64,000 bases of DNA from Gammaproteobacteria bacterium. GTDB taxonomy: Bacteria > Pseudomonadota > Gammaproteobacteria > SURF-13. This document shows positions 2,605 through 60,389 of the stretch, piece by piece (position 1 is the first letter of the stretch; every line of letters starts with the position of its first letter). Under the pieces are notes generated by a model that searched no databases, was not told where the DNA came from, and saw only the letters and a list, made by a program, of their open reading frames with translations. The DNA lies in the NCBI GenBank assembly GCA_016195665.1, contig JACPZD010000001.1:124001-188000 (forward strand), read 5' to 3'. The position numbers and the translations under genes were made by a program.

Positions 2605-2630
2605 ACTACTGATGAACTCATAAATCTAAA

Positions 2631-2754
2631 CCGCCAAGACGCCGAGGTCACAAAGAAATTTAAAACGTTGAAAATCAAACTCGTCAACCCGCAGGGTGAC
2701 CACTCAAGCTTGCTCAACTTCTTGTCTAATTTAGCGTTCTTGGCGCCTTGGCGG
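2631..2754. repeat. CCGCCAAG-type palindromic repeat, copy 1
   Basis: The core begins CCGCCAAGACGCCGAGG and ends with the near-complement CTTGGCGCCTTGGCGG. Similar cores recur at 44161, 51464, 54691 and 60280. This copy lacks recognisable TAAGGAA/CTCTGA ends, so it is probably an older copy. It fills the gap between the c-di-GMP gene and the first slp gene. Confidence 0.8.
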
Positions 2755-2824
2755 TTTCAACCGCTTTTTCCAGGATAAACTCAGGCTGCAACTCCCGGCC
2801 GCTACCGGAGTCGAAACCGGTATC

Positions 2825-3978: not shown

Positions 3979-5418
3979 ATGAATACCTCCATCGAAATCG
4001 CCCGCAATCTGATCCTGGCGCCCTCCGGCATGGACGAGGCCGCGCTTTATAACGTGCTCGACCAGATCATGCATCACCGCATTGACAGCGCCGACATGTA
4101 TTTTCAATCCAGCCGCCAGGAGTCGTGGCATCTGGAAGACGGCATCGTCAAGGAAGGCAGCCACAATATCGAACAGGGCGTGGGCGTGCGCGCGGTCAGC
4201 GGCGAAAAAACCGGCTTCGCCTATTCCGACGAAATCCTGTTGCCGGCGCTGACCCAGGCCGCCAAGACCGCACGCGCCATTGCGCGCAACGGTCAGCACG
4301 GCAGCGTCAAAAGCTGGCAGGGCAAGGCGGGTCATGCGCTGTATGTGCCCCTCGACCCGGTAGCCACGCTCACCGAAACCGGCAAGGTGCAGCTTTTGCA
4401 CCTGCTGGACAGCGAGGCGCGCCGGCTCGACCCGCGCATCAAGCAGGTGATGGTGAGCCTGGCCGCTGAACAGGACGTGATCTTAGTGGTAGGCAGCGAC
4501 GGCGCATTTGCCGCCGACGTGCGGCCGCTGGTGCGGCTCAACGTGAGCGTGATCGCGGAGCAAGGCGGCCGGCGTGAACAGGGCAGTGCGGGCGGTGGCG
4601 GGCGGGTGAGTTACCAGTACTTTCTCGACAGCGAGCGCGGTCTCGGCTACGCACGCGAAGCCGTGCGGCAGGCCTTGGTGAATTTGGAAGCGGTGGCGGC
4701 GCCCGCCGGCACCATGCAGGTGGTGCTGGGCCCCGGCTGGCCGGGCGTGCTGCTGCACGAGGCCATCGGCCACGGCCTGGAGGGCGACTTCAATCGCAAG
4801 GGCAGCTCCGCCTTCGCGGGACGCATCGGCGAACGGGTGGCCTCGGAACAGTGCACGGTGGTGGACGACGGCACGCTCGAAAACCGGCGCGGCTCGCTAA
4901 ACCTCGACGACGAAGGCACACCGACACAGTGCACCACGCTCATCGAAAACGGCATCCTCAAGGGCTATATCCACGACAAGCTGAATGCACGTCTGATGGG
5001 CGTCAAGCCGACCGGCAACGGGCGGCGTGAATCCTACGCGCATCTACCCATGCCGCGCATGACCAACACCTACATGCTGGCGGGCGGCTATTCGCCGGAT
5101 GAAATCATCCGCTCGGTGGACAAGGGCCTGTACGCCGTCAACTTCGGCGGCGGCCAGGTGGACATCACCTCCGGCAAGTTCGTATTCTCGGCGAGCGAGG
5201 CCTATCTGATTGAGAACGGCAGAATTACAAGACCCGTGAAGGGTGCGACCCTGATTGGCAACGGCCCGGATGTGCTCATGCGCGTGTCCATGGTCGGCAA
5301 CGATCTGGAGCTCGACACCGGCGTCGGCACCTGCGGCAAGGAAGGTCAAAGCGTGCCGGTGGGCGTCGGCCAGCCGACGCTGCGGATTGATGGGTTGACG
5401 GTGGGCGGGACGGCGTAG
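3979..5418 (+). CDS. tldD: TldD metalloprotease subunit
   Basis: 479 residues, full length for TldD. With TldE/PmbA it forms a cytosolic zinc protease that trims leader peptides and degrades unfolded peptides. The metal and catalytic motif [11 protein letters not shown] lies at about residue 258. The C-terminal glycine-rich [17 protein letters not shown] signature is intact. The start is an ATG after AAAAGG. A TTGACT box at 3883–3888 in AT-rich DNA could be part of its promoter, although the −10 is not clear. No tldE/pmbA gene is in the window, so the partner must be elsewhere. Confidence 0.97.
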
Positions 5419-5421
5419 TAC

Positions 5422-5564
5422 TAAGAGCTTATCCACAAATAATTTACCGCAGAGGACGCAGAGGAATACCTTACAAGAAGGGTTTGTTTCTCCTCCGCGC
5501 CCTCCGTGGTGAAGCCTTTTCATCGCAAGGGAGACACAGGGGAGCTATTTATGGATATGCTCTA
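5422..5564. mobile_element. Transposase-less element, CCGCAGAGG core, copy A
   Basis: About 143 bp. The left end reads TAAGAGCTTATCCACAAATA and the right end is its imperfect complement TATTTATGGATATGCTCTA. The interior begins ACCGCAGAGGACGCAGAGG and contains a diverged complement (CTCCGCGCCCTCCGTGG). It is nearly identical to the copy at 50172–50315, including the terminal inverted repeats, and has no coding capacity. It fills the whole gap between the convergent tldD and oxidoreductase genes, and its right end contains the stop codon of the latter. Flanks CTAAG and CTAAA suggest a 5-bp target duplication. Confidence 0.85.
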
Positions 5565-37296: not shown

Positions 37297-37691
37297 TCAG
37301 AACCCTTCAATGAACCGTTTGATCTTGAACTCTTTCCTTCCGATACCCGATGCTTCGTACCAGTGAACCTCAGCGAGATGAGCGTGCCCGTCTCTAAGGA
37401 AGCTCTGAATAAGTCCATCCTGGACTTCTCAGAGCACGAAAAGCAAAAACGTGGTTTTTGCTTTTCTTCATTTTTCAAACACTTCCGTGTTTGAAAAATG
37501 GCGGTGCGTCCCTGCACCGCTGGAACCTCTGACTTAATCAGAGGTTCCCTAAGCCGAACGCGGGCGATGCCCTTGCGTTTACGCCAACGCCCTTTACCAT
37601 ATAGCTTTCTAAGACGTGCCACTTCACGGATAGAAGATCCGACGGCGAATGTTTCTGCGTGCGAAATTTCGCCGAGGATCTCAAAGTGCAT
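37297..37691 (-). pseudogene. Conserved small gene interrupted by a hairpin element
   Basis: The start MHFEILGEISHAETFAVG and KLYGKGRWRKRKGIARVRL belong to a family of small basic proteins that normally continues HWYEA–GIG–K-KRF. Here the frame is broken after RVRLR by the 151-bp element at 37399–37549 flanked by CTAAG. Deleting 155 bases (element plus one target copy) gives RVRLRDGHAHLAEVHWYEA, then GIGRKEFKIKRFIEGF and a stop at 37297–37299, 79 residues in all. The current frame instead runs to 37287 with nonsense sequence. Confidence 0.88.
37399..37549. mobile_element. Serial-hairpin insertion element with CTAAG target duplication
   Basis: 151 bp made of five consecutive hairpins. They are: GCTCTGA/TCAGAGC with inner GTCC/GGAC (37402–37434); GAAAAGCAAAAAC/GTTTTTGCTTTTC, 13 bp (37438–37466); CATTTTTCAAACAC/GTGTTTGAAAAATG, 14 bp (37469–37500); GCGGTGC/GCACCGC (37501–37520); GGAACCTCTGA/TCAGAGGTTCC, 11 bp (37522–37548). 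The outer ends are also inverted repeats of each other (GAAGCTCTGAATAAGTC against GGAACCTCTGATTAAGTC). CTAAG flanks both sides. It carries no gene. The end sequence is shared with the CCGCCAAG elements. Confidence 0.88.
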
Positions 37692-43600: not shown

Positions 43601-43640
43601 GTAGCTTGGCGCCAAGCGGCCAAGCCTGCTTAGTAGGTTT
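43601..43640. repeat. Direct repeat, left copy (possible attachment site)
   Basis: GTAGCTTGGCGCCAAGCGG then CCAAGCCTGCTTAGTAGGT. The same sequence, differing at about four positions, is at 50029–50066. The two copies flank the segment that holds an integrase remnant and the arsR metal operon. They could be attachment-site copies or simply two copies of a dispersed repeat. Confidence 0.55.
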
Positions 43641-43693
43641 ACTAATCCGGCGGCCGAATGAATTCGGCCCTACAATCCATGAACTACTGGAGA

Positions 43694-44130: not shown

Positions 44131-44264
44131 TTAAGGAAACTCTGAAAAATATATCGCCAACCGCCAAGGCGCCAAGGTCACCAAGAAAAAAGGCTTGAAT
44201 TTGTAAAGAAAAGTCTTGGCGTTCTTGGCGTCTTGGCGGTTCAACATGATCAGAGCTTCCTTAA
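44131..44264. mobile_element. CCGCCAAG element with complete TTAAGGAA–CTCTGA ends
   Basis: The left end is TTAAGGAAACTCTGA and the right end TCAGAGCTTCCTTAA, matching as inverted repeats at 14 of 15 positions. The core begins CCGCCAAGGCGCCAAGG and ends CTTGGCGTCTTGGCGG. It is inverted relative to the copies at 54665 and 60251 (the ATATATCGCCAACC arm is on the left). No coding capacity. Confidence 0.85.
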
Positions 44265-50028: not shown

Positions 50029-50066
50029 GTAGCCTGGCGCTAAGCGGCCAAGCCTGCTTAACAGGT
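50029..50066. repeat. Direct repeat, right copy (possible attachment site)
   Basis: GTAGCCTGGCGCTAAGCGG then CCAAGCCTGCTTAACAGGT; matches 43601–43640. It follows the arsR operon by about 90 bases and directly precedes a hairpin element. Confidence 0.55.
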
Positions 50067-50171
50067 CTAAGGCGCCTCTGACTTAGCCAGAGGCGCCTGC
50101 GATACAGAGAAGAGCGAAGCGAAGGGTTCGTCTCTGAAAAATTCATGGGTGAATTTTTCAGAGATTCCTTC
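50067..50171. mobile_element. Serial-hairpin element, second copy type
   Basis: It contains GGCGCCTCTG/CAGAGGCGCC (50071–50097), a looser CAGAGA/TCTCTG hairpin, and a perfect 15-bp stem TCTCTGAAAAATTCA/TGAATTTTTCAGAGA (50131–50164). The left side is CTAAG and the right CTTAG. The ends (CCTCTGA and TCAGAGATTCC) match the element at 37399–37549 and the CCGCCAAG elements. A second element of the other family abuts it. Confidence 0.75.
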
Positions 50172-50315
50172 TTAGAACTTATCCATAAATAATTTACCGC
50201 AGAGGACGCAGAGGAATACCCTCAAGAAGGGTTTGTTTCTCCTCCGCGTCCTCCGTGGTGAAGCCTTTTCATCGCAAGGGAGACACAGGGGAGCTATTTA
50301 TGGATATGCTCTTAG
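50172..50315. mobile_element. Transposase-less element, CCGCAGAGG core, copy B
   Basis: 144 bp, almost identical to 5422–5564. Ends TTAGAACTTATCCATAAATA and TATTTATGGATATGCTCTTA. CTTAG is present at both borders (50171–50175 and 50311–50315), fitting a 5-bp target duplication. High identity between copies 45 kb apart suggests recent movement, so the mobilising enzyme may still be in the genome. Confidence 0.88.
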
Positions 50316-51437: not shown

Positions 51438-51546
51438 GGGGATCTTTGTTCAATCTATATTGAACCGCCAAGACTTATCTCTATAATTCAAGGATTTTTC
51501 TTGGCGATCTTGGCGGTTGGCGATAGTTTTTTTCGGAGCTTCCTTA
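51438..51546. mobile_element. CCGCCAAG element between convergent genes
   Basis: Core from 51464 (CCGCCAAGACTT) to CTTGGCGATCTTGGCGG, right end TCGGAGCTTCCTTA. It occupies the complete gap between the ABC ATPase stop and hflD. The stop codon of hflD (TAA, read on the minus strand from 51546) is the first part of the element end TAAGGAAGC. Likely also a bidirectional terminator. Confidence 0.8.
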
Positions 51547-52170: not shown

Positions 52171-52194
52171 GTCGTTATCCTAAAAACGCCGTTT

Positions 52195-52329
52195 CACCGC
52201 AGAGGACGCAGAGAACACAAAGGGATTTAAGTGGTTAGCTTCACAAGCCCGTTCACCCAGCGGGTGATGTGGAGAAACGAGATACACAATTGTTTTTACT
52301 ACAGACTCTCTGCGTCCTCTGCGGTTCAA
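52195..52329. repeat. CCGCAGAGG-type palindrome, diverged copy
   Basis: CACCGCAGAGGACGCAGAG at the left and CTCTGCGTCCTCTGCGGTT at the right form long inverted arms around unrelated DNA. The terminal TATCCATAAATA repeats of copies A and B are missing, so only the core is shared. It lies between mnmA and hflD. Confidence 0.75.
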
Positions 52330-52344
52330 GAGCTTTTTATAGAG

Positions 52345-54664: not shown

Positions 54665-54787
54665 AGGAATCTCTGATTATTCATGTTAGACCGCCAAGAC
54701 GCCAAGAACCGTCAGGGGATTTTCGAAAACTTTTCTTGGTGAACCTGGCGCCTTGGCGGTTGGCGATGTATTTTTCAGAGATTCCCT
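54665..54787. mobile_element. CCGCCAAG element with matching ends
   Basis: Left end AGGAATCTCTGATTATTCAT, right end TTTTTCAGAGATTCCCT; 11 bases match as inverted repeats. Core CCGCCAAGACGCCAAGAA ... CCTGGCGCCTTGGCGG. It lies in the divergent gap between nudJ and ypjD, where it could affect both promoters. Confidence 0.85.
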
Positions 54788-58909: not shown

Positions 58910-60253
58910 ATGTCGCGCATATATCTCATGTGGGTTCTGCTGCTTATCACCCATCCGCTGTGGGGTGACGGTGCTGCAACGGGCCAAGCGGTGGTGCTGG
59001 AAATAGACGGCCCGATAGGTCCGGCGACCAGCGATTACGTACACCGCGGTTTGCAAAAGGCCGCGGACATGAATGCAGCGCTGGTGATCTTGCGCATGAA
59101 CACGCCGGGCGGGCTGGACACCGCCATGCGCAAGATTATTGCCGATATCGTAGCGGCGAAGATGCCGGTAGTGTCCTATGTCGCGCCCGGCGGGGCGCGC
59201 GCCGCGAGCGCCGGCACCTATATCCTCTATGCCAGTCACATTGCCGCCATGGCGCCCGCCACCAACCTGGGTGCGGCCACGCCGGTACAGATCGGCGGCG
59301 TGCCCAATCCCGACGATTTCGGTCAGCCGGACAAGAAGGATAAAAAAGACGAGTCCGGCGAGAAGACCGACGACGCCCTCAAGCAAAAACAGGTGAATGA
59401 CGCCATCGCCTACATCCGCAGCCTGGCGCAACTGCGCGGCCGCAATGTCGAATGGGCCGAAAGGGCGGTGCGCGAAGCCGCGAGCTTGTCCGCCGAGGAA
59501 GCCGTGCGGCAAAACGTCGCCGACCTGCTGGCGAAGGATATGAACGATCTCTTCGCCCAACTCGACGGACGCAAGGTGGATGTCCTCGGGGCGGAGATCA
59601 CCTTGCGCACCGTCGGACTTGCCGTCATCACCCTAGAACCCGACTGGCGCAGCCGCTTGCTGGCCGTCATCACCGACCCGAACGTGGCCTACATCCTCAT
59701 GCTGCTCGGCATCTACGGCCTGTTCTTTGAATTATGGAACCCGGGTTATGTCCTGCCCGGCGTGGTCGGCGGCATCTGTTTATTATTGGCCCTGTACGCC
59801 TTTCAGGTTCTGCCGGTGAATTATGCGGGACTGGGGCTGATCATTTTAGGCATTGCCTTCATGGTGGCCGAGGCGTTTGTCGGAGGCTTTGGGATATTGG
59901 GCATCAGCGGCGCGATCGCCTTTGTGATAGGCTCGATCATGCTCTGGGATACCGACACGCCGGGATTTCAAATAGACCCCTGGTTGATAGGCGCCGTCGC
60001 CTTGTTGAGCGCGGGGTTTATCATGCTGGTCGTACAGCTTGCGCTCAAGGCGCGTCAGCGGCCGGTGGTGAGCGGCGCGGAAGAATTGATCGGCAGCCGG
60101 GGCGAGGTGATCGAGGCGTTTGACAGCGTGGTGCGCGTCAGGGTGCACAGCGAGGATTGGCAGGCGCGCAGCGATGTTCCCTTGCGCACCGGTCAAAAGG
60201 TGCGTGTCACCGCTAGAGAGGGCCTTACGCTTATAGTTCGTGCCGAATCCTAA
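58910..60253 (+). CDS. NfeD-type membrane protein with ClpP-like serine protease domain
   Basis: 447 residues from ATG 58910. A signal sequence precedes the protease domain (about 25–230). The catalytic Ser is in ARAASAGTYIL and the general-base Lys is expected a little later; LRMNTPGGLDTAM is the conserved GG turn. Then come four to five helices and a C-terminal OB-fold NfeD domain (GSRGEVIEAFDSVVRVRVHS). Such proteins cut stomatin-like partners, and a slipin gene follows. The TAA stop is the start of an inserted element (TAAG). Confidence 0.92.
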   Translation: MSRIYLMWVLLLITHPLWGDGAATGQAVVLEIDGPIGPATSDYVHRGLQKAADMNAALVILRMNTPGGLDTAMRKIIADIVAAKMPVVSYVAPGGARAASAGTYILYASHIAAMAPATNLGAATPVQIGGVPNPDDFGQPDKKDKKDESGEKTDDALKQKQVNDAIAYIRSLAQLRGRNVEWAERAVREAASLSAEEAVRQNVADLLAKDMNDLFAQLDGRKVDVLGAEITLRTVGLAVITLEPDWRSRLLAVITDPNVAYILMLLGIYGLFFELWNPGYVLPGVVGGICLLLALYAFQVLPVNYAGLGLIILGIAFMVAEAFVGGFGILGISGAIAFVIGSIMLWDTDTPGFQIDPWLIGAVALLSAGFIMLVVQLALKARQRPVVSGAEELIGSRGEVIEAFDSVVRVRVHSEDWQARSDVPLRTGQKVRVTAREGLTLIVRAES

Positions 60254-60389
60254 GCAATTTCTGATTTATTCATGCTGAACCGCCAAGACGCCAAGAACGC
60301 TAAGATTTTTCCTTACAACTCAAGCTTCTTTTTTCTTGGGAACCTTGGCGTCTTGGCGGTTGACGATATATTTTTCAGGGTTTCCCTAA
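60251..60389. mobile_element. CCGCCAAG element between nfeD and slipin genes
   Basis: Left end TAAGCAATTTCTGATTTATT, right end TTTTTCAGGGTTTCCCTAA; core CCGCCAAGACGCCAAGAACG ... CTTGGCGTCTTGGCGG. The TAAG at the left end contains the nfeD stop codon. It separates nfeD from the slipin gene that is normally tightly coupled to it, and its hairpin may reduce read-through. Confidence 0.82.

Follow-up and report, generated by a model that had tools for sequence, protein, structure and literature searches.

Short repeats with shared ends and exchanged interiors in a gammaproteobacterial genome are very probably MITEs of the IS5 group

The palindromic repeats of this gammaproteobacterial genome are, with little doubt, non-autonomous DNA transposons (MITEs) of the IS5 group. 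This assignment is supported by their matching ends, their 4-bp YTAR duplications, their dispersed identical copies, the pairs of filled and empty sites, and the transposases found in the host. As a kind of element they are ordinary, and it is their modular design that is unusually clear. Our analysis started from a window of DNA, the whole stretch of 64,000 nucleotides, in which a first-pass annotation had described a family of elements with a common palindromic core and common inverted ends.

The repeat at 44131–44264, whose earlier coordinates proved near exact, is composed of a 126-bp element and two flanking 4-bp target duplications, with the following parts (window positions).

44131..44134, no strand: left target duplication TTAA
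44135..44260, plus strand: complete type-A MITE (CGCCAAG core), 126 bp, RNA fold z = -7.8
44135..44145, plus strand: left terminal inverted repeat GGAAACTCTGA, intact
44159..44241, no strand: palindromic core, with arms AACCGCCAAGGCGCCAAGG... and ...CTTGGCGTCTTGGCGGTT
44250..44260, minus strand: right terminal inverted repeat, reading TCAGAGCTTCC on the plus strand, intact
44261..44264, no strand: right target duplication TTAA

The shared ends had been given as TAAGGAA–CTCTGA. The inverted ends are indeed conserved, but the true ends of the element are GGAANCTCTGA, and the first three bases of TAAGGAA belong to the target site, CTAA or TTAA, which is duplicated. The centre of this copy forms a strong imperfect hairpin (-54.4 kcal/mol, z = -7.8, RNA fold), the arms of which consist of 8–9 bp units (CCGCCAAG.CGCCAAG..). 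In the type-A alignment, exactly one 8–9 bp TTCTTGGCG unit is missing from an arm in several copies, and these losses within the palindrome suggest unit-wise slippage. The copies at C24:138269 and C34:27838 have exactly the sequence of 44135–44260 and lie in unrelated flanks.

The palindromic core reported for five copies in the window is present in each of them as an inverted CCGCCAAG pair (44161/44232, 51465/51509, 54691/54752, 60280/60352 and 2631/2747). In total, the window contains 15 occurrences of CCGCCAAG, against 4.2 expected and a shuffle maximum of 9. Besides the copy described above, these are:

2629..2756, no strand: CGCCAAG palindrome, core only, without GGAANCTCTGA ends
51438..51543, minus strand: decayed type-A copy; right end GGAAGCTCCGA (minus strand) intact, left end degenerate (GGGGATCTTTG)
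54666..54785, minus strand: type-A MITE with both ends intact; flanks TTGA/CTAA, without an exact duplication
60254..60385, minus strand: type-A MITE with diverged ends; CTAA duplicated on both sides

The inverted ends attributed to most of the copies are thus intact at 44131 and 54665 and diverged at 60251, but the left end has decayed at 51438, while the copy at 2631 is a core alone, as had been noted. The MITE at 60254 lies directly 3′ of the stop codon of the open reading frame 58910–60253, and its CTAA duplicate (60250–60253) preserves the stop.

In the 2.38-Mb genome, TAAGGAAACTCTGA gave 110 matches with at most two mismatches, compared with 3 for the reversed control, and the combination of end and core gave 45 exact matches, compared with 0 for the control. 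We extracted 32 complete type-A copies of about 130 bases, with about 10 partial copies besides. Their ends are conserved beyond the core, a point that the first-pass annotation had proposed to test by a genome scan, and the opposite pattern, a palindromic core with no conserved ends, was not observed. As several contigs start or stop inside an element, this copy number may be too low. The 32 type-A copies measure 107–134 bp, with a mean pairwise identity of 88% and four groups that are 100% identical; the 12 elements of a second class, type B, measure 98–348 bp, and no transposase gene lies within either type.

Among the five other genomes of the family, which represent the whole order as sampled and include none of the same genus, no match to end and core was found. 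Elements with end and core but diverged linkers are present in the Acidiferrobacterales MAGs HyVt-429 and S146_88, and 4 of these 7 elements have exact duplications (CTAG, TTAG, TAAA). A single match to end and core in viral contigs lacked the palindrome and was discarded as a chance match. A literature search on the core sequences returned nothing relevant, and an Rfam search with type A and type B gave no match at the gathering threshold.

A mark of transposition is carried by the flanks. We tested 44 elements with ends on both sides (32 of type A, 12 of type B). In 31 of them, including 22 of the 32 type-A copies, an exact 4-bp direct repeat stands just outside GGAA...TTCC, whereas 20,000 trials of random re-pairing of the element flanks gave a mean of 9.1 and a maximum of 23. 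The length of the duplication peaks sharply at 4 (k=3: 1, k=4: 31, k=5: 1), and the duplicated targets are nearly all CTAA, TTAA or TTAG, that is, YTAR. A YTAR duplication is what IS5 insertion usually produces (PMC10359306). The flanks of 100%-identical copies resemble each other no more than shuffled DNA does, and the occurrence of identical copies in unrelated flanks indicates dispersal, not block duplication.

Two nested insertions are precise pairs of filled and empty sites, of the paralogous kind. At C34:27838, a type-A element lies within one end of a type-B element and is bordered left and right by CTAA; when it is removed together with one of the two CTAA, the type-B sequence is restored and shows no gaps in the alignment with other copies. 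At C34:32064, a MITE with GAACTTATCCATAAATA ends and a TAA duplication is nested in a type-B element, and the empty counterpart is found at C28:88032. Empty insertion sites, which the first-pass annotation had proposed to seek in relatives, occur in this genome with clean duplications. A test for genes interrupted by the elements, based on open reading frames across the joined flanks, yielded no convincing case.

The ends of the MITEs can be assigned to the IS5 group because the IS5 transposases of the host and related ISs share both the ends and the YTAR duplications. The transposase fragment at C2:24852, a truncated remnant, is assigned to NCBIfam NF033581 (IS5 family) and lies behind TTAG followed by GGAACCTCTGAATAACCCC; this IS end matches GGAANCTCTGA exactly. 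The C2 transposase gene continues into a series of CAAGCTCAGGGTCAAGTCTAGCTTAGTA direct repeats (L062 about 4390–4550, corresponding to C2:25390–25550). At C39:28210, an intact 321-aa NF033581 protein is bounded by GRGACCTCTGAA ends (GAGACCTCTGAA and GGGACCTCTGAA) with flanks TATA/TATA; one of these ends departs from GGAANCTCTGA at a single base and the other at two. Related ISs in other Proteobacteria likewise combine GGAANCTCTGA-like ends with YTAR duplications. Two of them, with related transposases and from other genomes, read TTAG, GGAACCTCTGATTAA..., TTAG (L142) and CTAG, GGATACTCTGAAAAACT...GGAAGCTCTGAATAACTC, CTAG (L139). In the element-bearing Acidiferrobacterales MAGs, a search run without a positive control found no C2-type transposase or other IS5 relative; MAGs often lack ISs.

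Based on these comparisons, the transposase, an IS5-type DDE enzyme acting in trans, would bind the 11–15 bp terminal repeats GGAANCTCTGA(A/T)(A/T)A and would excise or copy whatever stands between them. Insertion at YTAR (CTAA, TTAA, TTAG or CTAG) would then produce the 4-bp duplication. The interior would be cargo, consisting of the CGCCAAG palindrome with its 8–9 bp units in one class and a chain of five hairpins in another. A transposase of the C2 or the C39 type may be the one that mobilises the elements in trans, and the CGCCAAG interior may have arisen by the capture of a pre-existing palindromic repeat.

The first-pass annotation had also remarked that the ends match those of hairpin elements with unrelated interiors, and this was borne out, since the type-B elements and an IS5 transposase gene share them. 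The window contains two type-B elements:

37398..37548, minus strand: type-B MITE with a five-hairpin interior and the same ends; CTAA at 37394–37397 and 37549–37552
50071..50168, no strand: degenerate type-B element with the same ends

The same ends bound the CGCCAAG interior, the five-hairpin interior, an IS, and palindromes of 26–27 bp. The last are two ends placed back to back, at C27:64535–64560 (26 bp, TTAA/TTAA), C24:130241 and C35:86458, and they are possibly minimal mobile elements or deletion remnants; in viral contigs, no such tiny double-end palindromes were found. On the other side, type-B hairpins lie between unrelated CCAGCAGGTTGTTGAA ends at L208:113–342 (C40, near a Y1_Tnp gene), in the layout of type B, with one end hairpin and one double-end palindrome; here the interior has exchanged its ends. 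Furthermore, G165, a genome from a different class of the phylum, contains a type-B element of diverged sequence with the same hairpin order. Its ends, GGATACTCTGAAAAACT and GGAATCTCTGAATAACTC, resemble those of the L139 IS, which comes from a genome of the same genus. With several interiors in one set of ends, and one interior in different ends, the modular reading of the family is well supported. The further claim that only the ends are recognised goes beyond this; from the comparison with IS elements, we infer that recognition may be confined to them.

The CGCCAAG core also occurs without ends. In addition to 2629–2756, core-only copies are located at C1:120538, C39:46653 and C40:84187, and G264, the sole other genome with a match in the 399-genome phylum sample, has three core-only loci. 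This occurrence without ends, together with the conservation of the core in related elements of other lineages, indicates that the core has its own history. A second palindrome, CCGCAGAGGACGCAGAG, gave 254 matches, compared with 13 for the control, mostly inside the GAACTTATCCATAAATA MITE and also alone; judging from these core matches, the second MITE family probably exceeds 100 copies genome-wide. Members of this family, with GAACTTATCCATAAATA ends, a TAA duplication and a CGCAGAG palindromic core, are found at 5425–5562 and 50175–50311 of the window, and at 52183–52338 a CGCAGAG palindrome stands alone, without recognisable transposon ends. The simplest account is that the palindromes existed as separate repeats and were later enclosed by IS5-type ends.

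This brings us to the alternative that survives best, which we judge to fall just short of an even chance. It holds that there are two layers, an older CGCCAAG repeat that spread by an unknown route, and IS5-type ends that were added to it once and gave rise to a burst of MITEs. The core-only copies of this genome and G264 agree with it, as does the GAACTTATCCATAAATA MITE, which likewise wraps a similar-looking palindrome that is also found alone. However, the core-only copies could be former MITEs whose ends are gone, which is on record for other MITEs (PMC10969869), and ends and core are already joined in related lineages, so that the joining must be old. The two-layer view is compatible with the IS5-group MITE explanation, as it concerns the origin of the interior.

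The type-B interior has features of its own. When the elements are read from the double-end side, CANGGANG loops are displayed on hairpin 4, hairpin 1 and an extra GC-rich hairpin; in the window copy at 37398–37548, it is the minus strand that carries the loops resembling CsrA sites. One strand has 29 occurrences of CANGGANG in 2735 nt and the other has 0 (10.6 per kb, vs 0.36 per kb in the surrounding genome), although the count overstates independence, as the copies are related. The CsrA SELEX consensus RUACARGGAUGU usually takes the form of a six-base loop with AC/GU pairing (PMC7652899), and hairpin 4 of C24:133959 (AUACAGGGAUGU), the best of the set, matches it at 12/12 positions. Five-hairpin type-B elements with CsrA-consensus loops are also found at C24:133959, L200 and L208. 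The type-B stems covary (17 of 43 pairs compensatory), while GGA is fixed and the preceding N takes all four bases, although template switching, too, can preserve palindromes. The fixed GGA, the changing stems, the single orientation and the presence in two bacterial classes fit a CsrA-binding role, and at the level of sequence they suggest that type-B elements may be mobile CsrA-binding RNA modules. The broader proposal, that the IS5-type ends would serve as an interchangeable delivery frame and the five-hairpin interior as a mobile CsrA/RsmA-binding RNA module, is a speculative one, to which we give perhaps one chance in a few. The csrA gene was not found in the portion of the genome searched, and our literature search found no paper linking CsrA to MITEs. 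Part of the type-B element at L015:1550–1629 (minus strand) matches part of Rfam BSR0653, a Brucella sRNA (E = 0.00065, with a score far below gathering).

The strong folds (z = -7.8 for type A and -14.4 for type B) and the compensatory changes in type B would also be expected if the elements were kept as functional RNA or DNA hairpins, such as terminators or 3′ UTR structures, with mobility being secondary. We consider this improbable. The target TAA or TAG is the stop of an open frame of at least 100 codons in 13 of the 44 elements, but this excess is weak against a background of about 10% per site and strand, and we do not claim a preference for stop-codon targets. Template switching can also keep palindromes perfect, and the recent identical copies with target duplications indicate that the distribution is explained by mobility.

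That the core is REP/REPIN-like and was spread by a Y1 (RAYT/TnpA-REP) transposase, with the ends being incidental, is very unlikely. This genome does contain nine Y1_Tnp genes as well as core-only copies, which also occur in 1 of the 398 other Proteobacteria genomes sampled. However, Y1 (HUH/Y1 family) transposition leaves no target duplication, whereas 22 of 32 type-A copies have one of 4 bp, and the ends of type A belong to DDE-type IS5 elements. At the five RAYT loci that were read, neither a type-A element nor a GGAANCTCTGA pair was found around the gene. As the criterion for REPs and REPINs, we applied a GTAG/CGTC tag beside a 20–40 bp palindrome, and the elements lack this tag of REPs (PMC3733652). 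The duplications and the IS5 ends rule out a REP/RAYT origin of the end-bearing copies; a RAYT route could account for the core-only copies. GTAG-tagged REP-like palindromes are present at 43601–43641 and 50029–50069 of the window. Finally, multiplication by segmental duplication or gene conversion instead of transposition, which the 100% identity of several copies might suggest, has practically no chance of being correct and is rejected for the copies tested by their unrelated flanks and by target duplications of exactly 4 bp.

To conclude, the family is best regarded as an IS5-group MITE and is a neat example of the exchange of interiors and ends. It is a clear case in nature of otherwise unrelated short elements that have nothing but IS5-type ends in common, and the nested insertions act as internal controls for the empty site. 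Should the hairpin interior bind CsrA, transposons would be one route to the bulk gain or loss of global-regulator sites across a genome, and a copy inserted into a transcribed region would supply new CsrA sites or a CsrA sponge.

Compared with known systems, the MITEs share with the IS5 group the GGAA-N-CTCTGA-WWA ends, the 4-bp YTAR duplication and matching transposase genes, but they are about 107–350 bp long, non-coding and not autonomous. Like REPs and REPINs, they are palindromic and intergenic, in a genome with RAYT genes, but they are longer and have a 4-bp duplication, IS5 ends and no GTAG/CGTC tag. The type-B interior resembles CsrB/RsmZ-type sRNAs in its several ANGGA-loop hairpins closed by AC/GU on one strand; in contrast to these sRNAs, the predicted sites ride on a multicopy transposable element and give no Rfam match at the gathering threshold. 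We found neither the CGCCAAG unit structure nor CsrA-like loops described in the literature searched. The closest parallels are the bacterial MITEs Chunjie of Geobacter uraniireducens, QMITE1/2 of Coxiella and MITEAba12 of Acinetobacter (PMC10969869), which are likewise shorter than 500 bp, with short TIRs, direct repeats, tens of copies and strong hairpins, a type II relation to ISs (through the ends only), nested insertion, and copies whose ends have been lost. The present family differs from them in that several unrelated interiors are enclosed by one set of ends, and in that one interior is also found between different ends (L208).
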